A program made the position numbers and the translations under genes. Shown here one piece after another: positions 13,604 to 53,897 of a stretch of 64,000 nucleotides of DNA. This DNA is from an uncultured Roseburia sp. (GTDB lineage Bacteria; Bacillota; Clostridia; Lachnospirales; Lachnospiraceae), in the NCBI GenBank assembly GCA_947062675.1, contig CAMSQM010000001.1, positions 62,001 to 126,000 on the forward strand, given 5' to 3'. Under the pieces are notes generated by a model, which did not search any database, was not told the origin of the DNA, and saw only the letters and a list, made by a program, of their open reading frames with translations. The first letter of the stretch is position 1. Each line of letters begins with the position of its first letter.

Positions 13604-15249
13604 GCGGCAATGGAATGGCATCCCGGCCGCCCAGGGTGTGGAATGTCTGCGGATATGTGCGCCTTTCACGGGAGGACGGCGCCGTCCCGGATGCCGGCGG
13701 CAATCCCTGCCGAGGCGCCGGGAGGGAGAGCAACAGCGTCACGGGACAAAAAGAGCTGATCCGTGATTACTTAAGCGGTCATCCGGAACTTGTGGAGTGC
13801 GATATGAAAGTGGACGACGGGTATTCCGGCCTGAGCTTTGAGCGGCCCGCTTTCCGGGAAATGATGGACGCCGTAAAAGAGGGAAAGATCAACTGTATTA
13901 TTGTGAAAGATTTATCGAGATTCGGCAGGAATTATCTTGAAGCGGGGGAATATATCGAGCGGATTTTTCCGTTTCTGGGAGTGCGCTTTATAGCAATCAA
14001 CGACCATTATGACAGCCTGTACAAAAAAACGGAGTCCGAAGCGCTTCTGATTCCGTTTAAAAATCTGATCAATGAAGCATACTGCCGTGATATATCCGTA
14101 AAAATCCGCAGCCAGCTGGCGGTGCGGCGCAGGAGGGGGGATTTTACGGGTTCTTTTGCCGTTTACGGGTACTTAAAAGATCCGCAAAACAGAAATCATC
14201 TGGTGAAGGACGAATTTGCAGCCGGTGTGGTGCGCGATCTTTTCCGCTGGAAGCTGGAAGGAATGAGTGCCGGGGATATCGCGGACCGCCTGAACCGGGA
14301 GGGCGTTTCCTCCCCGCTGGATTATAAGAAATCACAGGGCCTGCGCTTTTTTACCCCGTTCGGGGGATGCGGACGTTCCCTGTGGAATGCCACCACTGTT
14401 TTGCGTATTCTGAAAAATCCCGTCTATACAGGGGTGCTGGAACAGGGGAAGAGCACCGCTGTGTGCCTGAAAGTAAAACGCCGTGTGGCAAAGCCGCGCA
14501 GCGGGTGGGATATTGTGGAGGGGACGCACGAGGCGCTGGTGGGACGGGATGAATTTACGGCCGTTCAGAGGGTGCTGGCGCGGGATATACGCACAGGGCC
14601 GGGGAATCCGGTTGCGGACCGCCTCTCAGGGATGGTGTACTGCGGGGAATGCGGGGCGGCAATGGTGCGAAAGACGGTACCCTCCGGAAAAAAGAAATAC
14701 ATATATTATGTCTGTGCGGCGCACAAAAATAAGAAGTCCTGCTCTGCGCACAGTGTGCGGGACAGTGTGCTGGAGGAGATTGTGCTTAAGTCCGTACAAA
14801 AACAGATGGAGAGTGTGATCGGCGCGGAACGCCTCGCGGAACTCTCAGACGCCGTCTTTGCGCCGGACGATAGCGCCGGGAAGCTGCGGGAGCGTCTGGA
14901 TCGGAAGAACGGGGAGATCAGCCGCTTTCAGCGACTGCTGGATTCCCTGTATGAGAACCTGGAGGATGGGATCATCAGCCGGGAGGAATACACAGGCCTG
15001 AAAAAGAAATACGGCCTGCTCCTCGCACAGGCGAAAGAGCAGGCCGGAGAACTCTGTCTGGAAAAAGAATGCGCGCCTGCCGGCGGCACCGGAAGCCGGG
15101 CCGGAAACAGAAAATACCAAAAGCTCACGGAGCCGGACCGGGCCGCTGTGGTGATCCTTCTGGAGCGCATTCTTGTGTACAGAGACAAACGGGTGGAAAT
15201 CATCTGTGACTGGAAGGATCAGATGCCGGCTGCCGCGGACAAAAAATGA
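13600..15249 (+). CDS. Large serine recombinase 1 of element 1
   Basis: 549-aa site-specific recombinase of the resolvase/integrase large-serine class. The catalytic domain has CGYVRLSRED (the Ser is the nucleophile), the GYSGLSFERPAFREMMD block and IIVKDLSRFGRNYLEAGEYIE; then the recombinase DNA-binding domain (GMSAGDIADRLNREGVSSP), the zinc ribbon CGECGAAMVRKT ending ...KKSC, and a C-terminal coiled coil (about residues 425-490). ATG 13600 overlaps the stop of the truncated M23 frame as ATGA, with AGGAGCAGGAG before it, so translation is coupled to the host gene fragment. It differs strongly from recombinases 2 and 3. Confidence 0.93.
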   Translation: MSGNGMASRPPRVWNVCGYVRLSREDGAVPDAGGNPCRGAGRESNSVTGQKELIRDYLSGHPELVECDMKVDDGYSGLSFERPAFREMMDAVKEGKINCIIVKDLSRFGRNYLEAGEYIERIFPFLGVRFIAINDHYDSLYKKTESEALLIPFKNLINEAYCRDISVKIRSQLAVRRRRGDFTGSFAVYGYLKDPQNRNHLVKDEFAAGVVRDLFRWKLEGMSAGDIADRLNREGVSSPLDYKKSQGLRFFTPFGGCGRSLWNATTVLRILKNPVYTGVLEQGKSTAVCLKVKRRVAKPRSGWDIVEGTHEALVGRDEFTAVQRVLARDIRTGPGNPVADRLSGMVYCGECGAAMVRKTVPSGKKKYIYYVCAAHKNKKSCSAHSVRDSVLEEIVLKSVQKQMESVIGAERLAELSDAVFAPDDSAGKLRERLDRKNGEISRFQRLLDSLYENLEDGIISREEYTGLKKKYGLLLAQAKEQAGELCLEKECAPAGGTGSRAGNRKYQKLTEPDRAAVVILLERILVYRDKRVEIICDWKDQMPAAADKK

Positions 15250-37444: not shown

Positions 37445-39849
37445 ACGGAAGAAAAGTGACATCAGACATGATATCAAGGATGGCGGTGAGGAGTCTTAAG
37501 GCAGGCCGTCTGCGCAATATTTTTGTAATGATTACGATTGTTCTGGCATCTTCCCTGCTGACGGCGATCCTGATGTTTGCGGCGGGAGGGAGGCAGCAGG
37601 AGAAAAATGCACTTTCACACAGGCATCAGGTTGTCTATTTTAATCTGGACGAAGAACAGGTGCATAAACTTGAAAAGGATGACCGCATCTCATATCAGAT
37701 ACGCGTGAAAACGGGGATTCTTTCCGGGATGGAAGGCTTTGATCTGATGCCGTATTATGTGAGTGAGATGTCAGATCAGATCCGGTTCGCGGAACTGGAG
37801 AGCGGAAGGATGCCGGAATCCGCAAATGAGGTTGCTGTGTACGGGGCGATGCTGGAAAAAATGAATATTGCGCCTGCCATCGGCGGCAGTGTCACCTTTC
37901 AGTTTTATGACGGGAACACAGAAACCTTTCTGGTATCGGGCATCTTAAAAGGAGGAGAAGCGCTGAAACAGTTTTCCGCTTTCTTTTCTGAAAATTATGC
38001 GGAAGATGGAAGCCAGCTGAAAGATGAACCGTATGAAGTATATGCGAAGGTCGGCGGTGCGGCGGAAATGTCTCCGGAGCAGTGCAGGGAAGTGATGTAT
38101 CAGATCGGCAGCGATGCGGGGATTGAGCGGAAATATGTAAATCCGTCAAAATTATTTATGGATTCCCTGTCGCTGGATACACAGTCCGTTGTGCTGTACG
38201 GTATAGTGGGTCTGGTGATTCTGCTCGCGTGTTTTCTCGTCATTTACGGTGTGTTTTATCTGTCGGTGACCGGCAGGATCCATCAGTTCGGGCAGCTTCG
38301 CACCGTTGGCATGACGAAAAAACAGATGAAGAAATTTGTGTTCCGCGAGGGCGGTATTCTGTTTGTGCGCGCGGCGCCCATTGGCGTTCTGACCGGCGGG
38401 ATTGTGGGATATTTTCTGATCCCGGACGGTTTTGACCCATGGAATACGCTTCTGACAGTGGTCTCTGTGTCTGCGGCCGTATATGCGATTACCATGATTT
38501 CCGTGCACAGGCCCGCCCGAATGGCGGCGGCCGTCTCCCCGATGGAAGCGCTGCGCTACATTCCGCAGGAGATTATGAGGAAGAAGGCCCATAAAAAGAT
38601 GTGCCGCAATCTGACGCCGACGGGTCTTGGGATGATGAATTTTTCAAAAAACGGAAAGAAAGCCGTGATTACCATGTTTTCGCTGGCGTTTGGCGGCATT
38701 CTTTTTATGACGGCGGCGACATATATGTCTTCGTTTGACAGGGAAAAATATGCAAGGCAGGGATGGTTTAAAGACGCGGAATTTGATATTCAGTATTCCG
38801 CGGGCGCAATTGAGTTAAATGAATACGGACTGGGCGGTCTGCAGGCGGAGGCGGCGCTTGGCGCCGAAATGGTGCGGGAGATCCTGGCTCTGGACGGCGT
38901 GAGAGAGGTAAAAGAAGTAAAGTCGTTTGGCGTCAGATATGATTATCCTGAAAAAGATGAATATGGAGCGAATGATCAGGTATATCCGCTGACAGAAGCG
39001 GAGATAAATGAGCTCCATAAATACCTGGAGGACGAAAGCATCGATTATGAAAAACTGATGAGCGGCGATTATATCCTTATGGCGGGCAACAGCCTGGCAG
39101 AAGAGATTTACGGATGGAAATTTGAGGCGGGAGAGAGTATTACGCTTCATTATTATGACGGCGGTGAGATGGCGCAAAAAAATGTCACGATACTTGCGAT
39201 TCTGAGCGACAGGTATCTGCTGGACAACGACGGTTTTGAGGGATGGTTCCTGATGCCGGAACAGGCGGTGCTCTCACTTGTGTCCTATGACAGTTTAAAC
39301 AGTCATCTGATTGTCTCAACCGAGGCGGAGCGGGAAGCCGCAATCGGGGAAATCCTCGCGCAGATGACAGAAAAGAGACCGGAACTGACACTTGAAACGC
39401 TTGCAGAGCGACGGATTTATTACGCGCAGATCGTAAACCAGATGTTCGGGGTTATCAGCGGTCTTTCCATTTTTATTATGATGTTCAGCATATTCAGCAT
39501 GATAAACACACTTATTACCAATGTTGTCACGCGCAGACAGGAGCTCGCCGTGCTGGAATCCATCGGGATGGGGAAAGGGCAGATCCGGAAAATGCTTCTT
39601 GGCGAGAGCCTGTTCCTGGTTTTTGTAACGGTGGGCGTGACAATGACCGTCGGTACGGTATGCGGATATATGCTAAGCCGGGTGCTCTATGGTATGGGAG
39701 CCTATTATATGGAGTTCCGCTTTCCCGCAGTTTTGTTCCTGGCCTATGCTGGCGTGCTGATATCTGTACCGCTTGTCATTACCCTTGTGTCTGTGCGGAG
39801 CTTTTCGAAAGAGGCGCTGGTGGAGCGTTTAAGAGGAGCGGAGAACTGA
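37441..39849 (+). CDS. FtsX-type ABC transporter permease
   Basis: 802 aa. One N-terminal helix (about 22-46), a large outside domain, three helices (about 240-345) forming the first FtsX domain, a second single helix near residue 405, a second outside domain, and the last three helices (about 660-790). This 10-helix plan with two FtsX domains fits permeases of peptide-sensing or lipid/lipoprotein-extruding exporters, often answering antimicrobial peptides. No two-component genes lie alongside. The export substrate is unknown. Confidence 0.9.
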   Translation: MNGRKVTSDMISRMAVRSLKAGRLRNIFVMITIVLASSLLTAILMFAAGGRQQEKNALSHRHQVVYFNLDEEQVHKLEKDDRISYQIRVKTGILSGMEGFDLMPYYVSEMSDQIRFAELESGRMPESANEVAVYGAMLEKMNIAPAIGGSVTFQFYDGNTETFLVSGILKGGEALKQFSAFFSENYAEDGSQLKDEPYEVYAKVGGAAEMSPEQCREVMYQIGSDAGIERKYVNPSKLFMDSLSLDTQSVVLYGIVGLVILLACFLVIYGVFYLSVTGRIHQFGQLRTVGMTKKQMKKFVFREGGILFVRAAPIGVLTGGIVGYFLIPDGFDPWNTLLTVVSVSAAVYAITMISVHRPARMAAAVSPMEALRYIPQEIMRKKAHKKMCRNLTPTGLGMMNFSKNGKKAVITMFSLAFGGILFMTAATYMSSFDREKYARQGWFKDAEFDIQYSAGAIELNEYGLGGLQAEAALGAEMVREILALDGVREVKEVKSFGVRYDYPEKDEYGANDQVYPLTEAEINELHKYLEDESIDYEKLMSGDYILMAGNSLAEEIYGWKFEAGESITLHYYDGGEMAQKNVTILAILSDRYLLDNDGFEGWFLMPEQAVLSLVSYDSLNSHLIVSTEAEREAAIGEILAQMTEKRPELTLETLAERRIYYAQIVNQMFGVISGLSIFIMMFSIFSMINTLITNVVTRRQELAVLESIGMGKGQIRKMLLGESLFLVFVTVGVTMTVGTVCGYMLSRVLYGMGAYYMEFRFPAVLFLAYAGVLISVPLVITLVSVRSFSKEALVERLRGAEN

Positions 39850-39892
39850 CGGATATTTACCGGCGGAGAAATCTGACCGGAAGAATTGAAGG

Positions 39893-40000
39893 GCAGGCGG
39901 CAGGTCCGGAAGCGCCGGCAACTGAAAAGCAGGCGGCAGATCCGGAAGCGCCGGTAACTGAAAAGCAGGCGGCAGGTCCGGAAGCGCCGGTAACTGAAAC
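39893..40000 (+). repeat. Three 36-bp tandem repeats after the permease
   Basis: Units start at 39893, 39929 and 39965 and are almost identical (GCAGGCGGCAG(G/A)TCCGGAAG...). 36 bp is 12 codons and one frame would read QAA(G/D)PEAP(A/V)TEK repeats, but that frame begins inside the permease and has no ribosome binding site. No other gene is seen in 39850-40145 apart from the GCACGGAGG site of the next gene. Confidence 0.8.
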
Positions 40001-40145
40001 GCCGGTAGTGGAGAGGAACGGCCGGAGCGGATGAGCGGAGTCCGGGGGTTGCGGGTTAAATGCACAGGATGGCAGATAAAAAACTGTTATCCTGTGCGTT
40101 TTTGTGTTATGATATCTGCACGGCGTTTTTGCACGGAGGAAATAT

Positions 40146-44329: not shown

Positions 44330-45120
44330 TTATGTGAGGAAGAACAGCAGTGTTTTCAGGAAATAGTCCTTGTAGGCGGCTTTTTCCACCGAATCCGTGT
44401 ACACGATATCAACGCTGCCGATTTCTTTTCCGTTCAGGGAATAGACGGCCCTCCCCGCGACGTCGCCGCGCTTTACGGGCGCCTCCACGGATTCCGGGAG
44501 CTCGACGGATTTGCTCACTCCGGATAAGTCCGAGCCGTCCGTGGACAGGTACTGAAACGGGCCTGTGTATGCCAGATTTACATGGTCCGCGATTCCCTTT
44601 TCCACCGCGATGGAGGCCGGTTTATCCTCATTCTGGTCGGCATAGACCCGGCAGCGCCCGAACCCGTAGTTTAAGAGGGTGGTCGCATCGGAAAAGCGCA
44701 CTTTGTAATCCGGCGCGGCCATGATGACGGCGATCAGTTTCATGCCGTCTTTTTCCGCCGTGGCGGAGACGCAGTATTTTGCGAGGCTTGTGGAGCCGGT
44801 TTTTAAGCCTGTGGCATACTCATACTGCCGGATCAGTTTGTTGGTGTTGGTGAGCCCGAATTCGCTGGAGCCTTTTGCCGTGGTATGTGTAATATTTTCC
44901 ATCCAGATGGTGCAGTAATTGTGGATCTGGGGGTATTTTGTGATCAGCTCCCTGGACATCAGCGCGACGTCATAGGCGCTGGTCATGTGTCCGTCCACGT
45001 CCAGGCCGCAGCAGTTGACAAAGGAGGTCTCGTTCATTCCAAGCCCTCTGGCGCGCTCGTTCATCATGCGGACAAATTCTGTTTCCGATCCCGAGATATG
45101 TTCTGCCATGGCGACACAGG
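44330..45120 (-). CDS. 3' part of the split D-alanyl-D-alanine carboxypeptidase gene
   Basis: Minus strand, reading from the core at 45120 down to 44330. It encodes the rear of a DacF-like penicillin-binding protein: AMAEHISGSETEFVRMMNERARGLGM, NCCGLDVDGHMTSAYDVALM, the active-site LKTGSTS (Lys280-Thr-Gly282 in the restored protein), and the C-terminal beta domain plus amphipathic tail. The Ser-X-X-Lys and SxN motifs are missing; they lie 3.6 kb away at 48729-49258. An internal ATG at 45109 has no good ribosome binding site, so this part is unlikely to be made alone. Joined to its front half it gives one 436-aa frame. Confidence 0.88.
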
Positions 45121-45141
45121 AAGCATATATGGATAGCAGAC
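45111..45141 (+). other. attL of element 2
   Basis: Core GCGACACAGG (45111-45120), identical to 48729-48738, followed by the element arm ending in ATAGCAGAC (45133-45141). Its reverse complement GTCTGCTAT matches GTCTACTAT at 48712-48720 in 8 of 9 bases. Confidence 0.78.
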
Positions 45142-45580
45142 AAATGGTATGGACAGGAATCCGCTGTCAGCCTGATATAAAATTGAGCAGATGGTATCCA
45201 GGTGGATTTTTCAGAAAAAATTATTAAAATTGTTCAGCCTGTGTCCTGTGCTGGCGATGCCTGTGTCGATTGTGCATCCGGGCGTATCCGGTACTGTTGC
45301 AGTTGAAGCGGCAACAAAGGTTTATTTCTTTTACAAACGCTGAACAGGGGGCTGCATATGGCATTGTGTATGAAGGGGCGACTGACAGGTTTCAGTTTCT
45401 TCATATTTTAGCTGATTCAGTTGCTGCTTCGGCGATGAAAATGTATGTAATCCTTATAAATTGTACACATCAGAAGGTTAAATATTCGGACATTGTCATA
45501 AGCAAATGATCAGCGTGAAAATACTGCCAGCCGTGTGCTTATCTGCAGGAGAGTCTGACTGCAGTCTGTGTCGAAATATG

Positions 45581-45610
45581 TTGAAAAGTGATGCGTCCGC
45601 GGGTTATAAT
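45581..45610 (+). promoter_or_regulatory. Sigma-A promoter of the element 2 cargo gene
   Basis: TTGAAA (45581-45586), 18-nt spacer, consensus TATAAT (45605-45610), then ACGGAGG before ATG 45646. Confidence 0.75.
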
Positions 45611-45645
45611 TATGAAAAATCCTAAATCTACGGAGGACAGCTATT

Positions 45646-46638
45646 ATGGGACTGGTAGCGGCAAAATGTACACAGTGCGGTGCGGATATCGAGGTGGATG
45701 CCTCGAAAGAAGCAGGGATATGCAGATACTGCGGCACTGCGTTTATTACGGAAAAGGCAATAAACAATTATAATGCATATGTCACGAATCACAATAATTT
45801 TGCGGGTGCAAATATTACCATTCAGGGTGGAAGCGAGCTGGAGGAGTTAATAGAGCGCGCTAAAGCGTTTGTAAAACTTGACGATTTCGCTCAGGCCAGG
45901 TATGCTTACGGAAAAGTAACAGCCCTGTATCCAATGGATTACCGTGGCTGGCTGGGCCTGGTTACGTGCGAAACAAAGAATGACAGCATTATAGGTATTT
46001 CAGAATATGCCCATGATAACATATTAAAGTATTTTGAAAATGCTCTAAAGGTTGCCGGTCCGGAAGTTCAGAAGGATATACTGGAGCAGAGAGAGGAATA
46101 TGAGCTGTTATATAAAAATGAAAAAGTCAGACGTGAAACCGGGGAAAACATTGCCTACATATGCAATCAGCATTCCCAGGTCCATGTGGAAAAGGCGCTT
46201 GGCTGTGACTGCGGAGACGCCGACACTTTCGACAGATTTGATTATGTGCTGGGGCATGATGTGGAATATCTGGTTCTGATCAATGGTCATCATTCTGACA
46301 GGAAAACAACCTGTGAGAAGGCTGTGAACATGAGCAATATAGAGGAACTGTTATCCGCATATAAAAAGAAAAAAGAAGGGTGTTACATCGCCACCTGTGT
46401 ATATGGCTCTTATGACTGCCCGCAGGTGTGGACGCTCAGGAGATTCAGGGATCAGACGCTTGGCGGAACATGGTACGGCAGGTTCTTTGTAAAATGCTAT
46501 TATGCAGTTAGTCCCGTTCTTGTGAAGCGGTTTGGCGGACGGGAGTGGTTCAGGTGGTTCTGGAAGTACGGGCTGGATAAAATGGTTTCGGCTCTGAACG
46601 ACAGGGGTGTGGATGATTCACCGTACAGTGACAGATGA
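45646..46638 (+). CDS. Zinc-ribbon, CFI-box CTERM protein (cargo of element 2)
   Basis: 330 aa. N-terminal zinc ribbon CTQCGADIEVD...GICRYCGTAFI (two CxxC pairs), a short beta segment (FAGANITIQGGSE), a TPR-like helical region (AKAFVKLDDFAQARYAYGKVTALYPMDYRGWLGLV), and a C-terminal domain starting CYIATCVYGSYDCPQVWTLRRFRDQTLGGTWYGRFFVKCYY, which matches the CFI-box CTERM pattern. The CFI box is found at the end of many bacterial proteins and may be lipid- or membrane-associating; its role is unknown. Whether the gene serves the element or the host is open. Confidence 0.8.
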   Translation: MGLVAAKCTQCGADIEVDASKEAGICRYCGTAFITEKAINNYNAYVTNHNNFAGANITIQGGSELEELIERAKAFVKLDDFAQARYAYGKVTALYPMDYRGWLGLVTCETKNDSIIGISEYAHDNILKYFENALKVAGPEVQKDILEQREEYELLYKNEKVRRETGENIAYICNQHSQVHVEKALGCDCGDADTFDRFDYVLGHDVEYLVLINGHHSDRKTTCEKAVNMSNIEELLSAYKKKKEGCYIATCVYGSYDCPQVWTLRRFRDQTLGGTWYGRFFVKCYYAVSPVLVKRFGGREWFRWFWKYGLDKMVSALNDRGVDDSPYSDR

Positions 46639-46821
46639 TTTATCGTCTGAGCTGCCGCACATTTTGATTCCGTTCAGACCGGTATTCTTTTCATTATTTC
46701 TGATCCGTGCCGCCGGTTCAGACCGGGTGGTTCTGAAATAAAAAAGTGCAAATCGTCCAGCTTTTGTGGATTTAATTAATAAAAAGCCAGAAGAGTAAAT
46801 ATGCTATGTTATATCAATGTG

Positions 46822-46849
46822 AAGCCGCGAAAAGCGGCTTTATTTTTTT
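46822..46849 (+). terminator. Terminator of the CFI-box gene
   Basis: AAGCCGC, loop GAAAA, GCGGCTT (46822-46840), followed by TATTTTTTTA. Confidence 0.88.
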
Positions 46850-47126
46850 ATTATGTGACAGGCGGATACAGGGGTATGCGGTTAAAATAAGGGATGATAC
46901 AGAGAAAAATTGCCGGTTAATTCTGAATAAGACAGGAAGGAAAAGAATAAAGATAGAATAAAATTATATATCTGAGAGGGCGGAGTTTGAAGCAAAAAAC
47001 GAAAAGAATAAAAGTCAGTGTTGTTTATGGAAACAGGAGACTGACTGACTGTATGAAAAATATCATTGCGAAAAGAACAAAACAATAGAGAGCGGACTTA
47101 ATTAATTGCGACTGGAGCTGAACAGA
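46850..47126 (+). other. AT-rich leader of recombinase 4
   Basis: About 280 nt rich in A and G-poor, with many AAAA stretches, between the terminator and the recombinase. Several weak -10-like boxes are possible; none is convincing. No gene seen. Confidence 0.45.
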
Positions 47127-48710
47127 ATGGATGGAAATCGTGCTGTATTATATCTGAGACTGAGCAAAGAGGATGTCGATAAAGTAAACAAAGGGGATGA
47201 CAGTGCAAGTATTAAAAATCAGAGGCTGCTGCTGACAGACTATGCGCTGGCGCATGAGTTTAAAATTGTGAGTGTGTATTCGGATGATGACGAGAGCGGA
47301 CTGTATGATAACCGGCCGGGTTTCGGGAAAATGATGGTTGATGCAAAACTGGGGCAGTTTGATATAATTATTGCAAAGACGCAGTCGAGATTTTCAAGAA
47401 ATATGGAGCATATCGAGAAATATCTTCACCGTGATCTTCCGAATCTGGGGATCCGGTTTATTGGTGTTGTCGACGGCGTCGATACAGACAATGAGGATAA
47501 TAAGAAAAGCAGACAGATTAACGGACTTGTCAATGAATGGTATTGTGAAGATCTGTCAAAAAATATCCGCAGTTCTTTCAGGGCAAAAATGAAGAACGGT
47601 CAGTTTTTAGGTTCTTCCTGTCCGTATGGCTACAGGAAGGATCCGGAAAATCATAATCATCTGGTGATAGACGAATATGCGGCAAAAGTGGTAAAAAGAA
47701 TTTACAGACTCTATTTATCCGGATATGGCAAGGCAGGAATTGGCGCAATTTTATCATCAGAAGGAATTTTAATTCCGACCCGGTATAAAAGAGAAGTGCT
47801 GGGTGAAAGGTATTATAATTCGAAGGCACTGGATACGACAAAAAACTGGTCATATCAGACAATCCATGTGATTCTGAACAATGAAACATACATGGGACAT
47901 CTGATTCAGAACAGAGTGAATACGCTCTCATATAAGGACAAAAAGAAGAGAAGGCTTCCAAGGGAAAAATGGATTATCGTAAAAAATACCCATGAGGCAA
48001 TCATTGAGCCGGAAGTGTTTGAGATGGTACAGAAGCTGCAGAAAACGCGGACAAGAAATATGGGTTCCGTGGAAGAGAACGGTATTTTTCCGGGAATTTT
48101 GTACTGCGCAGACTGTAAACATGCCATGTCAAAAAAATATGCAAGGCGTGGAAATGGACGGTTTACCGGATATGTGTGCAGAACCTATAAAACGCAGGGA
48201 AAGAGGTTCTGTGAAAGTCACAGTATAGATACAGGTGATCTGGAAGAAGCGGTGCTTTGCTCAGTGAAAGAGGAAGCGAAAAAAATCCTGAAACCGGAAG
48301 ACATCGACGAGCTGAAGAAAATGCATGTTTTCAGTGAAGCTGCAAATGATTGTGAAATGCAGCTGGACAGTATCCGGGAACGCATAAAAAAAATAGAAAA
48401 ATTTAAAAGGAAAACATATGATAACTATATGGAAAATCTGATCTCAAAAGATGATTATATTGAATATGTTTCCGGGTATGAGAAAGAAATAGAAGAATTA
48501 CAGCGGAAGAAGCATACGGTTCAGGACAGATGCCGTTCAGAGCGGGAGCAGGATCATAAGTATGACGAATGGGCAGATGCGTTCAGAGACTACATAAGTG
48601 TAACAGAACTGACAAGGGACATGGTTCTGGAGCTGATAGAACGGATTGAGGTCGGTAGTGACAGTTCTATTACGATCTATTATAAGTTTCAGAATCCATA
48701 TGCGGAGTAA
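47127..48710 (+). CDS. Large serine recombinase of element 2
   Basis: 527 aa from ATG 47127 (GGAG at 47113-47116); a TTG at 47106 in frame is less likely. Catalytic domain AVLYLRLSKEDVDK (Ser nucleophile), DDDESGLYDNRPGFGKMM and IIAKTQSRFSRNMEHIEKYL; recombinase domain (GYGKAGIGAILSSEGILIPTR, NETYMGHLIQNR, THEAIIEPEVFEMVQKLQ); zinc ribbon CADCKHAMSKK ... CRTY ... FC; C-terminal coiled coil (about residues 415-475). Codon use is AT-richer than its neighbours. Its stop lies 18 nt before the attR core, the same distance as in element 1. It is the presumed catalyst for excision and integration of element 2. Confidence 0.94.
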   Translation: MDGNRAVLYLRLSKEDVDKVNKGDDSASIKNQRLLLTDYALAHEFKIVSVYSDDDESGLYDNRPGFGKMMVDAKLGQFDIIIAKTQSRFSRNMEHIEKYLHRDLPNLGIRFIGVVDGVDTDNEDNKKSRQINGLVNEWYCEDLSKNIRSSFRAKMKNGQFLGSSCPYGYRKDPENHNHLVIDEYAAKVVKRIYRLYLSGYGKAGIGAILSSEGILIPTRYKREVLGERYYNSKALDTTKNWSYQTIHVILNNETYMGHLIQNRVNTLSYKDKKKRRLPREKWIIVKNTHEAIIEPEVFEMVQKLQKTRTRNMGSVEENGIFPGILYCADCKHAMSKKYARRGNGRFTGYVCRTYKTQGKRFCESHSIDTGDLEEAVLCSVKEEAKKILKPEDIDELKKMHVFSEAANDCEMQLDSIRERIKKIEKFKRKTYDNYMENLISKDDYIEYVSGYEKEIEELQRKKHTVQDRCRSEREQDHKYDEWADAFRDYISVTELTRDMVLELIERIEVGSDSSITIYYKFQNPYAE

Positions 48711-48711
48711 T

Positions 48712-48738
48712 GTCTACTATATATAAACGCGACACAGG
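48712..48738 (+). other. attR of element 2
   Basis: Element arm GTCTACTATATATAAAC (48712-48728) followed by core GCGACACAGG (48729-48738), then host sequence CATCGTTTGC. Together with the left arm it makes a 48-bp imperfect palindrome whose centre falls on CA within the core. Confidence 0.78.
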
Positions 48739-49258
48739 CATCGTTTGCACTTGCGATGCTGATACATTTCAGCATAGTGTCGACCGTCTGGGTTTCCCCG
48801 GGCTCCAGAAATACCTGGGAACCGCCCATGCTGGCGGCGTGTTCCGAGACGGTCACGGTGTCCTCAGGGGAAATCTGTCCGGCCGCAAGCGCATCGAATA
48901 TCAGGATCATCGTCATGATTTTTGTGATGCTGGCCGGGTGGAGAACTTCGTGGGAATTTTTCTCGTAAACAATGGCTCCGGTCGAAGCCTCCATCAGAAG
49001 TACGCTCGGAGCGGAAATGCTTAAGGCGGCATCCGGGACGTCTTCCTCTGCCCGGATAAGACGCCCTGCCCCGTCGGAGGTCAGCAGCCCGGAGTCCGCC
49101 TCCCGCAAGTGAGAGTCCGCCGCGGAGGTCAGCAGTCCGGAGTCCGCCGCACAGGCCGCGGTCTGTCCCGGGGCCGCCGTCCGGCCCGGCGGGAGTGTAT
49201 AAGCGAGGGAAGAGATAGCCAGATTCATGGTCAGAAAAAGGGAAACAAAATACTTCAA
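48729..49258 (-). CDS. 5' part of the split D-alanyl-D-alanine carboxypeptidase gene
   Basis: Minus strand, TTG start at 49258 with AGGAGG 5 nt upstream. Signal peptide (YFVSLFLTMNLAISSLAY), a low-complexity linker with two copies of ADSGLLTS, then the front of a DacF-like penicillin-binding protein: LMEASTGAIVYEKNSHEVLHPASITKIMT with nucleophile Ser110 and Lys113, and the second motif Ser170-Ala-Asn172 in ISIASANDACVA. After the core the frame goes on for 12 foreign codons to a stop at 48689, overlapping the recombinase end on the other strand. The KTG motif is missing, so this product cannot be an active carboxypeptidase until rejoined to 44330-45120. Confidence 0.9.
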
Positions 49259-49334
49259 TGGTTCCTCCTGAATATGGTTGCAGGTAGCGATTTATTAAAG
49301 TGTAAGAGGAATGCATGTACTTTATGAATTGTTC

Positions 49335-49411: not shown

Positions 49412-50164
49412 ATGGATATGACTTTCAGGCTGCAGGTGTTTGAGGGGCCGCTGGATCTTCTGCTTCACCTGCTGGAAAAGAATAAAGTAAATATTTATGA
49501 TATTCCCATTGCGGAGATTACGAATCAGTATCTGGAGTATATCGCCGAGATGAAGCGCCAGGATCTGAATATTGTGAGCGAATTTCTGGTGATGGCCGCG
49601 ACACTGATTGATATCAAGTCCAGGATGCTTCTGCCGGCGAAGGAGACGGAGGAGGAGGAAGCGGAGGATCCCAGGGCGGAGCTGGTGCAGCAGCTTCTGG
49701 AGTACAAGATGTACAAGTGTATGGCCAGTGAGCTTCGCGACCGTCAGGTCGATGCGGAGCGGGTGCTGTTCCGGGCGCAGGCGCTTCCGCCGGAGGTGGC
49801 GGATTATGAGCCGCCGGTGGACCTGGACGAGCTGGTGCAGGGGGTGACTCTGGCTAAGCTGAACGAGATTTTCAGGTCGGTCATGAAGAAACAGGTGGAC
49901 CGGACAGATCCTGTCCGCTCAAAGTTCGGAAGGATTGAGAAAGAGGAGGTCTCTCTTTCGGAGAAGATGACCTATCTGGAGCAGTACAGCGCGGCGCATC
50001 ACCGGTTCAGTTTCCGGAATCTTCTCGCGGCGCAGGCCGGAAAAATGGAAGTCATCGTCATGTTTCTGGCGGTTCTCGAGATGATGAAGCTCGGGAAGAT
50101 CTGTATTTTTCAGGAGAGGACATTTGATGAGATTCAGATACAGTCGAAAATGGAGAGCATATGA
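49412..50164 (+). CDS. scpA: Segregation and condensation protein A
   Basis: 250-aa kleisin subunit bridging the SMC heads in the bacterial condensin complex. Characteristic start FRLQVFEGPLDLLLHLLEKNKVNIYDIPIAEITNQYLEYI, then MAATLIDIKSRMLLP, an acidic linker, and the C-terminal winged helix (FLAVLEMMKLGKICIFQERTFDEI). Ends in an ATGA overlap with scpB. Confidence 0.96.
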   Translation: MDMTFRLQVFEGPLDLLLHLLEKNKVNIYDIPIAEITNQYLEYIAEMKRQDLNIVSEFLVMAATLIDIKSRMLLPAKETEEEEAEDPRAELVQQLLEYKMYKCMASELRDRQVDAERVLFRAQALPPEVADYEPPVDLDELVQGVTLAKLNEIFRSVMKKQVDRTDPVRSKFGRIEKEEVSLSEKMTYLEQYSAAHHRFSFRNLLAAQAGKMEVIVMFLAVLEMMKLGKICIFQERTFDEIQIQSKMESI

Positions 50165-52748: not shown

Positions 52749-53681
52749 TCACGATGCTTTCGTCACAGGAACGGGCAGGCTGTTGGACGCACGGCTGGAC
52801 ACTCTGCCGTTTCCGCTCACCTTTGCGTAGGCCACAACGTACACGTAATAGGTCCCCGCGGGGACGTCTTTGAGGGAGAACGTCCCGGATCCTGTATTTT
52901 TTCCGATGGTGGTGCGGTATGCATCGCCGTAATCCGTGGGAACCAGCCAGATGACGTATCCGCTGGCTTTTGTAACTTTTTTCCAGGAGACTTTGAGCGT
53001 ATCTTTTTTACCGGTTTTTGCACTGGTAAGTGTCGGCGCTTTCGGCGTGATGGAGAAAGAGAGCGTCCGCGGGCGCTGGTTTTTGTAAGCGCCTTTAAAG
53101 GTGATTTTTATGGTATAATACCCCATTGCCTTTGGTGTTTTTTTCTTAAAAGTGCCCCCGACGGTCTGGCCGTAAGTGACCGTATACTTTTTGGGGGAGA
53201 CATCCAGGCCGCCTTTTTTTACGGAAACCTTCGGCTTTATGGTTTTTCCCGTGTAGGCATAGGTGGTATTTGCCAGAGATACAAATATGGCTCCGCCGGT
53301 GTCCGCTTCGGCTTCGGTGTCCGCCAGCCGCATCTGCGCCGTGGCGGAAGCATTCTCCTGCGCAGTCGTCGCGAAAGAAGGAGCGTCAGCAGCCGCAAAG
53401 GCCGCTGTGTCCACGGAGTTTTCCTGCGCTGCCGTCGCGAAAGCCGGAGCATCTGCAGCCGTAAAGGCCGCTGTGTTCATGGAGTTCTCCTGCGCTGCCG
53501 ACGCGAAAGCCTTTGCGTCAGCAGCCGCAAAGGCCGCTGTGTGCGCGGGATTCACGGAAACGGCGCTGCCGTCAGGCGCCGCAGCGGCGGACGTCACCGG
53601 CTGAAACAGCATTGCGGCACAGAGCGTGACCGCAGCCAGTCTTTTTCTGAAATTTTTTCTGAAATGGAGATCAGGATTCAT
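52749..53681 (-). CDS. Secreted repeat protein with Ig-like/FN3-like domains
   Basis: 310 aa from the ATG at 53681 (GAGGCG upstream on the minus strand). Signal peptide FRKRLAAVTLCAAMLFQPVTSAAAA; then three 22-residue repeats of the form TAAFAAADAxAFAxAAQENS; then a beta domain (TTYAYTGKTIKPKVSVKKGGLDVSPKKYTVTYG) and a C-terminal fibronectin-III-like domain (KDTLKVSWKKVTKASGYVIWLVP ... LKDVPAGTYYVYVVAYAKVSG). There is no sortase signal or catalytic motif. Probably a surface or extracellular binding protein; function not recognised. Confidence 0.8.
   Translation of the reverse strand: MNPDLHFRKNFRKRLAAVTLCAAMLFQPVTSAAAAPDGSAVSVNPAHTAAFAAADAKAFASAAQENSMNTAAFTAADAPAFATAAQENSVDTAAFAAADAPSFATTAQENASATAQMRLADTEAEADTGGAIFVSLANTTYAYTGKTIKPKVSVKKGGLDVSPKKYTVTYGQTVGGTFKKKTPKAMGYYTIKITFKGAYKNQRPRTLSFSITPKAPTLTSAKTGKKDTLKVSWKKVTKASGYVIWLVPTDYGDAYRTTIGKNTGSGTFSLKDVPAGTYYVYVVAYAKVSGNGRVSSRASNSLPVPVTKAS
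53350..53550 (-). repeat. Three 66-bp tandem repeats inside the secreted protein gene
   Basis: The anchor GCCGCTGTGT occurs at 53401, 53467 and 53533, exactly 66 bp apart, coding the 22-residue Ala-rich repeats. Confidence 0.85.
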
Positions 53682-53753
53682 TTTTCGCCTCATTTCTGCA
53701 CGGTTTTCGTTGTGCAAAGTTCTGTATGTTGATAAAAAACTTCTGACAGATCT

Positions 53754-53783
53754 ATAGTAAAGAATGTGGGGCTGGTCTGTCAA
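53754..53783 (-). promoter_or_regulatory. Sigma-A promoter of the secreted repeat protein
   Basis: Minus strand TTGACA (53783-53778), 18-nt spacer, TACTAT (53759-53754), about 70 nt before the start codon. Confidence 0.7.
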
Positions 53784-53897
53784 TATGCGCATTCATAAAA
53801 TTGTCGCCTTCCGGTTATATTTTTTGCAAAACAGGGAGAAAAGTTACGCGTGGAAAGGGATGAGGATACAGAATCTGTGGATTACCCGGAAAGACTG

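Follow-up and report, generated by a model that had tools for sequence, protein, structure and literature searches.

A serine-recombinase element within a D-alanyl-D-alanine carboxypeptidase gene of Lachnospiraceae, a probable intervening element of a sporulation-associated gene

The split gene and its element

We analyzed a stretch of 64,000 nucleotides (the window) from an uncultured Roseburia sp. of the family Lachnospiraceae (assembly GCA_947062675.1, contig CAMSQM010000001.1, positions 62,001 to 126,000). Its minus strand carries, at 44330-49258, a gene for a D-alanyl-D-alanine carboxypeptidase of peptidase family S11 that is separated into two pieces by a 3,618-bp element (Table 1). The same ten bases, the core GCGACACAGG, end the front half and open the rear half at a spacing of 3,618 bp, and joining the flanks by script gave a single frame of 436 amino acids plus stop that reads SANDACVAMAEHIS across the join, i.e., recombination between the copies of this short direct repeat would restore the frame. 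The insertion point falls among active-site codons, those for AND|ACVA. Within the joined protein, SITK (residues 110-113, S110xxK113) and SAND (170-173, SAN172) precede the join and K280TG follows it, and the Pfam profile Peptidase_S11, which places the protein among the S11 D,D-carboxypeptidases, is covered at positions 7-111 by the front half and 111-238 by the rear half. A preliminary description made from the letters of this DNA had proposed this anatomy, with its core repeat, a frame restored by removal of the element and catalytic motifs divided between the halves, all of which the scripted join reproduced. In Bacillus subtilis, dacF is linked to the spoIIA operon. We use the name dacF only loosely for the window gene, because here the order is cls-gene-scpA, with no spoIIA linkage at the locus.

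The element encodes its own site-specific recombinase, a large serine recombinase (LSR) whose start is most likely the ATG at 47127, given the start in its relatives. The combination of Resolvase, Recombinase and zinc-ribbon domains with a symmetric phage attachment site (attP), found joined in relatives, is that of a large serine integrase. The preliminary description had named a recombinase fixed in its inability to act on these sites as one refuting case; the LSR looks intact, with 1 of 144 columns that are invariant among 24 relatives changed. The cargo protein has a relative (36% identical) that adjoins the attP in a viral contig (L221). No phage structural gene was found among the window-element open reading frames (ORFs) scanned (the LSR, the CFI-box protein and one short ORF), and a prophage proper was rejected for this element, although its viral relatives do have such genes. 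IS607 or an IStron was rejected as well (IS607 model score of 20.3 versus a cut-off of 110, and no TnpB among the proteins scanned).

Table 1. Features of the split gene, the element and its surroundings (window positions)
Feature	Position	Strand	Remarks
Gene rear half	44330..45110	-	KTG280, PBP5_C domain
Core repeat GCGACACAGG, rear-half junction	45111..45120	not assigned	
Opposite attP arm box ATAGCAGAC	45133..45141	+	one change from ATAGTAGAC
Cargo protein, 330 aa	45646..46638	+	NCBIfam CFI-box-CTERM domain
Micro-ORF, 33 aa, contains IKVSVVYGNRRLTDCMKNII	46987..47088	+	directly before LSR; candidate directionality factor, function inferred
LSR, 527 aa	47127..48710	+	Resolvase, Recombinase, Zn-ribbon, DUF4368 (PF14287)
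attP arm box GTCTACTAT, front side of gene	48712..48720	+	
Core repeat GCGACACAGG, front-half junction	48729..48738	not assigned	
Gene front half	48739..49258	-	TTG start; S110xxK113, SAN172
Promoter-like motif before gene	49299..49326	-	conserved in genus
scpA, divergent neighbour	49412..50164	+	same neighbour in 17/18 intact relatives fetched

One insertion site in many genomes

We searched the joined protein against 62 genomes of the genus and fetched 18 of its full-length orthologs. Both halves were contiguous in all 18, which excludes the other refuting case of the preliminary description, that no intact relative exists at this position. The order cls, gene, divergent scpA, scpB was that of the window in 17 of them; in the 18th (G045, the closest by identity), none of these neighbours lay within the 12 kb fetched. 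The window gene is, therefore, a normal gene that has been interrupted. Named genomes were then scanned for related LSRs, which yielded 27 loci; in the 27 genomes concerned, the gene was broken at the same place in 22, of which 20 had both halves, one (G148) only the front half and one (G151) two rear halves and no front. The two rear halves of G151 (L147 and L148) differ from each other and may reflect either a mixed bin or two copies. The gene was intact in four genomes (G155, G167, G168 and G171) and was not found in one (G170). The genus of the window has another split case in G039, and G031 yielded only a rear half, behind an element. The intact relatives together with the same-codon breaks elsewhere exclude chance, and an assembly artefact was rejected because the same break recurs in many assemblies, including four that bear isolate names (G158, G161, G163 and G165). 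In a survey of the family with one genome per genus, all the gene matches listed except the window's own rear half span the join; split copies would rank among the weaker matches, so that the listed matches give no split frequency.

Both halves were found on one contig in 9 of the 20 genomes, with elements of ca. 2.8, 3.8, 4.3, 4.6, 10.8, 11.9, 14.8, 18.4 and 52 kb, the eight smaller of which differ in cargo by eye. Named by reading rather than by models, this cargo includes a sugar-acid catabolism/ABC-transport set (L122), an indolepyruvate oxidoreductase-like set (L120/L140), a PIN-toxin-like pair (L115) and a large unknown gene set (L121). From the junction texts, the centre of the palindrome is the TG of the Cys codon. 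Of 22 split loci, 7 have the exact front-side arm box and 15 have it within one change; for the rear-side box the corresponding counts are 11 and 15 of 25. In some elements the arms have diverged from the box. At one locus (L116 of G153), the crossover Cys codon is a Ser codon (TCA) at both junctions, i.e., the core and the bacterial attachment site (attB) have changed together.

The joined attP was observed in relatives (L219, L220, L221 and L033), not in the window element itself. Three of these are IMG/VR contigs (L219, 42 kb; L220, 64 kb; L221, 61 kb) with a joined 48-bp site and both arm boxes. The scan for phage genes covered L219, where the protein encoded ahead of the integrase region gave matches to phage tail families, and L221, where one protein matches a tape-measure family. 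L221 is 99.8% identical over 1,521 bp to the element beside the front half of G154 and 95.5% identical over 2,831 bp to the element beside its rear half. The two matches meet at the core with an overlap of 8 bases, the halves of G154 being on separate contigs. We read the two from their sequences as the integrated and rejoined forms of one element. Another genome, G155, has the joined site on one contig and an intact gene.

A tree was built with 30 dacF-type LSRs and, for comparison, 20 related LSRs of other kinds. Two of the 30 (L123 and L146) fell out because the frame used for them began before a stop, and the remaining 28 dacF-type LSRs formed one clade with no outsider (FastTree support of 0.89). 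A micro-ORF profile, with 13 seeds taken from in-gene loci, found a match upstream of 22 of the 23 in-gene LSRs (including the seed loci), all four LSRs beside a joined attP and all four further LSRs of the clade (L044, L214, L216 and L218; L214 adjoins a rear half), versus none of 21 other related LSRs. From this distribution we take the 33-aa micro-protein as the candidate directionality factor; the three micro-proteins scanned gave no significant Pfam or PHROGs match. Before the micro-ORF there is a motif (GAATAAG...GAATAAAAT) that we matched to no sigma factor. Between micro-ORF and LSR, several elements (L125, L115, L153, L130 and others) have a long inverted repeat around TATAAT (TTGTATCATGTA...TACATGATACAAGG), and the window element is without one. 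The element body is found in either orientation relative to the gene within this one clade (L130, L148, L116 and L121 versus the window, L115 and L153), with the core at the junctions keeping the gene's own sense, and it seems that the body has flipped relative to attP several times.

DUF4368 occurs in 63% of a multi-targeting LSR clade and in 0.73% of site-specific LSRs (PMC10083194). The LSRs studied here share this domain (PF14287) with the TndX-like recombinases but, in contrast, were seen at one site only.

Constraint on the two halves

The 21 front halves that passed the identity limit, the window included, have SxTK and no stop (those of G159 and G162 fell just below the limit and were left out), and the 25 rear halves are open over 258-266 aa, the KTG keeping its offset in each. 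Across 19 genomes, distances between front halves parallel those between rear halves (Mantel r = 0.79, p = 0.0002), while those of LSR and rear half are uncorrelated (r = 0.09, p = 0.28, n = 19), indicating horizontal transfer of the elements into a gene that is itself inherited vertically. Overall, this test rejected vertical descent of LSR and host together, which fits well only the pair G039/G031. Here 3,386 bp of the element are collinear at 87.9%, and synonymous divergence (dS) was 0.49 in the rear half and likewise 0.49 in the neighbour cls. Three cargo genes gave 0.49 (the longest of them), 0.51 and 0.28 (a gene of only 117 codons). The ratio of nonsynonymous to synonymous divergence (dN/dS) was 0.045 for the rear half and 0.044 for cls, and simulated neutral drift over the same length produced ca. 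11 stops in two copies, with none of 2,000 runs free of stops. A second pair, G164/G166, has collinear cargo and dN/dS of 0.065 (rear) and 0.037 (front), with a variable dS (0.81 for the rear half; 0.43, 0.75 and 1.00 for cargo) and an LSR end that is only ca. 74% identical. For comparison, the closest intact pair had values of 0.052 for the rear and 0.024 for the front part; rear-part values of up to 0.20 occur among the other intact pairs listed. A gene that is permanently off should not show such constraint. The window halves themselves change 1 of 95 and 1 of 52 columns that are invariant in intact copies, where the range is 0-5 and 0-2.

These data bear on a rival explanation, namely that the element is a plain parasite that uses a conserved gene as its dock, with recent and often lost insertions, halves that are intact since few of them are old, and no programmed excision. 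The horizontal movement just described would suit it, and so would the presence of the LSR clade in only 7 of 299 genomes (one per genus) and the three other S11 genes kept by the window genome. However, in each of two sets of species a collinear element is shared and the halves are constrained, and in G039/G031 the rear half, the neighbour and two of the three cargo genes have equal dS; on balance we hold this explanation to be unlikely. A further explanation is that the halves act as two separate proteins, both being conserved and the rear half starting with an ATG near the junction. We give this very little credence: inspection by eye shows no ribosome site upstream of the rear ATG in the window, front halves extend 1-53 residues past the junction, and the catalytic motifs are divided between the halves.

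Sporulation, excision and known systems

Orthologs of the gene were called at E <= 1e-70 and SpoIVA, the marker compared, above its own cut-off, one SpoIVA match below it (G203) being dropped. Among 299 genomes of the family, 191 have both, 97 have neither, and 5 and 6 are discordant (Fisher p = 3e-64, for genomes that are not independent). The link is weak in the window's own genus, for which 55 genomes were compared: SpoIVA accompanies the gene in 28 of 29 carriers and is also present in 19 of the 26 genomes that lack the gene (p = 0.02). Unlike in the rest of the family, many SpoIVA-positive members of the genus have no ortholog, G010-G013 and G015-G017 among them. The window genome carries SpoIVA, SpoIIR and two small acid-soluble spore protein (SASP) genes. 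The carboxypeptidase gene thus appears to occur mostly in spore-formers of its family, and we class it as a putative sporulation gene by this co-occurrence rather than by expression, with less support within its own genus. In Clostridioides difficile, dacF, a possible ortholog of the window gene, belongs to the sigma-G (forespore) regulon (PMC3789822).

The motif before the gene reads, by eye, GCATAAW, 14 bases and NYTAVAAT. It was matched once each in G000, G034 and G053 and not in G052, with no control matches in any of the four. By eye it is like spoIVA promoters in the -35 box and the spacing and unlike them in the -10 box, and the SASP promoters compared gave no clear motif. Nor does the motif resemble the spoIIR type, and assignment of a sigma factor failed. 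This outcome would agree with another explanation, in which excision does occur but is triggered by prophage induction or stress, or is random, instead of being developmental. Phage insertions in competence genes are a parallel for excision of this kind, and integrases of the same clade occur with the micro-ORF in viral contigs, including those with the tail genes (L219) and the tape-measure-like gene (L221). Against it, the target gene tracks SpoIVA in the family and the window-element ORFs scanned include no phage structural gene; we regard this alternative, too, as improbable.

The reading that we consider probable, with due reserve, is that of an intervening element of the skin/gin type with a new target gene, rebuilt by excision. 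It draws on the attachment-site anatomy, the recurrent use of one site, the free and integrated forms of one relative, the intact halves under purifying selection and the co-occurrence with a sporulation gene. The 3.6-kb element would probably be a reduced relative of temperate phages and other mobile elements that share its integrase. The LSR would insert it at a single conserved attB, formed by the SANDACVA codons in the gene of the sporulation-associated D,D-carboxypeptidase, and the split gene would yield no enzyme. An LSR generally makes the integrated state by itself, and the integrase alone would likewise produce the split state here. The same rule is stated for skinCd (PMC5025042). In the reverse direction, we infer that the LSR, probably aided by the 33-aa protein, recombines the junctions across the TG of the Cys codon, which would rebuild the gene and free a circle, including in the window strain. 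Excision would be most likely in sporulating cells, as for skin, gin and yin, with the element kept in the germ line. For an element to persist in a gene that remains under selection, excision would have to be confined largely to cells without descendants (the mother cell), or else the element would have to reintegrate afterwards. By analogy with skin and gin we favour the mother cell; if the gene acts in the forespore, a reintegration route would be needed.

Several observations weigh against this probable intervening element. The preliminary description had held the enzyme to be off until excision; the constrained halves and the joined attP of relatives are consistent with this, while a search of the window's own assembly found only the two halves and no joined copy. 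The window front half has 8 unique changes versus 2 in its nearest intact relative (for the rear half, 8 versus 13). The gene can also be lost, as G025 (L152) of the same genus shows, where a frame change disrupts it and the site is free of any element. The front half was not found in G031, the LSR of G157 is frameshifted, and the profile found no micro-ORF before the LSR (L149) of G039, one of the two genomes in the main case for constraint. The 19 of 26 own-genus genomes that keep SpoIVA without the ortholog speak against a tie to sporulation, as does the failure to recognise a sporulation sigma signature before the gene, where the motif differs from the GGSAATA type at spoIIR of related genomes. 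Excision in the forespore, finally, the compartment to which the regulon of the C. difficile dacF belongs, would lose the element from the spore.

A broader version, which we put forward as doubtful, treats the one codon stretch as a dock that the whole clade shares throughout Lachnospiraceae, from phages and other mobile elements to cargo islands and mini-elements, with the micro-protein of ca. 33 aa as the gate. If the gene is a forespore gene, like dacF of C. difficile, the circle would need to stay in the spore and reintegrate after germination, making a reversible switch in place of a one-way excision in the mother cell.

Elements splitting five sporulation genes of Bacillus and Clostridium-type hosts are named in PMC10747680 and PMC5595907: skin (sigK), SP-beta (spsM), vfbin (spoVFB), gin (gerE) and yin (yabG). 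The element described here is like gin of Bacillus cereus (PMC5595907) in being non-phage, with a serine recombinase and a split sporulation gene, and shares with it a short core repeat and imperfect inverted repeats; the micro-protein may correspond to the helper protein of gin, GirX. It differs in the gene, in having one LSR known from sequence where gin has three recombinases and a tested excision at sporulation time, and in having relatives with differing cargo at one site. In skinCd of C. difficile sigK (PMC5025042), an LSR goes with a small directionality factor (CD1234, 72 aa, under sigma-E and SpoIIID) and tested excision rebuilds the gene; here the LSR goes with a 33-aa candidate, and excision would likewise rebuild the gene. 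For prophage-like yin in yabG of C. botulinum, free circle and integrated form coexist, comparable to the joined attP and the integrated copies among relatives of the window element; as described, yin is unique to one strain, unlike the present family, which is found in many species (PMC10747680). SP-beta in spsM of B. subtilis (PMC4191935) is a phage in a spore-envelope gene that is rebuilt in sporulation; it is a full prophage, the window element only 3.6 kb. A search of titles and abstract openings, with subscription papers mostly outside it, found no report of this gene interrupted, which is not proof that there is none. In the present case a single site in a cell-wall gene has been occupied repeatedly within a major gut family; the halves are constrained, and sequence data contain the free form as well as the integrated one. 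Why mobile elements choose sporulation genes thus becomes testable in cultured commensals, carriers among them being Schaedlerella arabinosiphila DSM 106076 and Lachnospiraceae bacterium 3-2. The system also supplies a candidate directionality factor of very small size and, in its integrases, a clade with DUF4368 that stays with a single site.

Elsewhere in the window, another large serine recombinase, only distantly related to that of the element (32% identity), lies at 13717-15207, and the open frames at 52749-53792 and 39660-40034 contain imperfect repeated segments.

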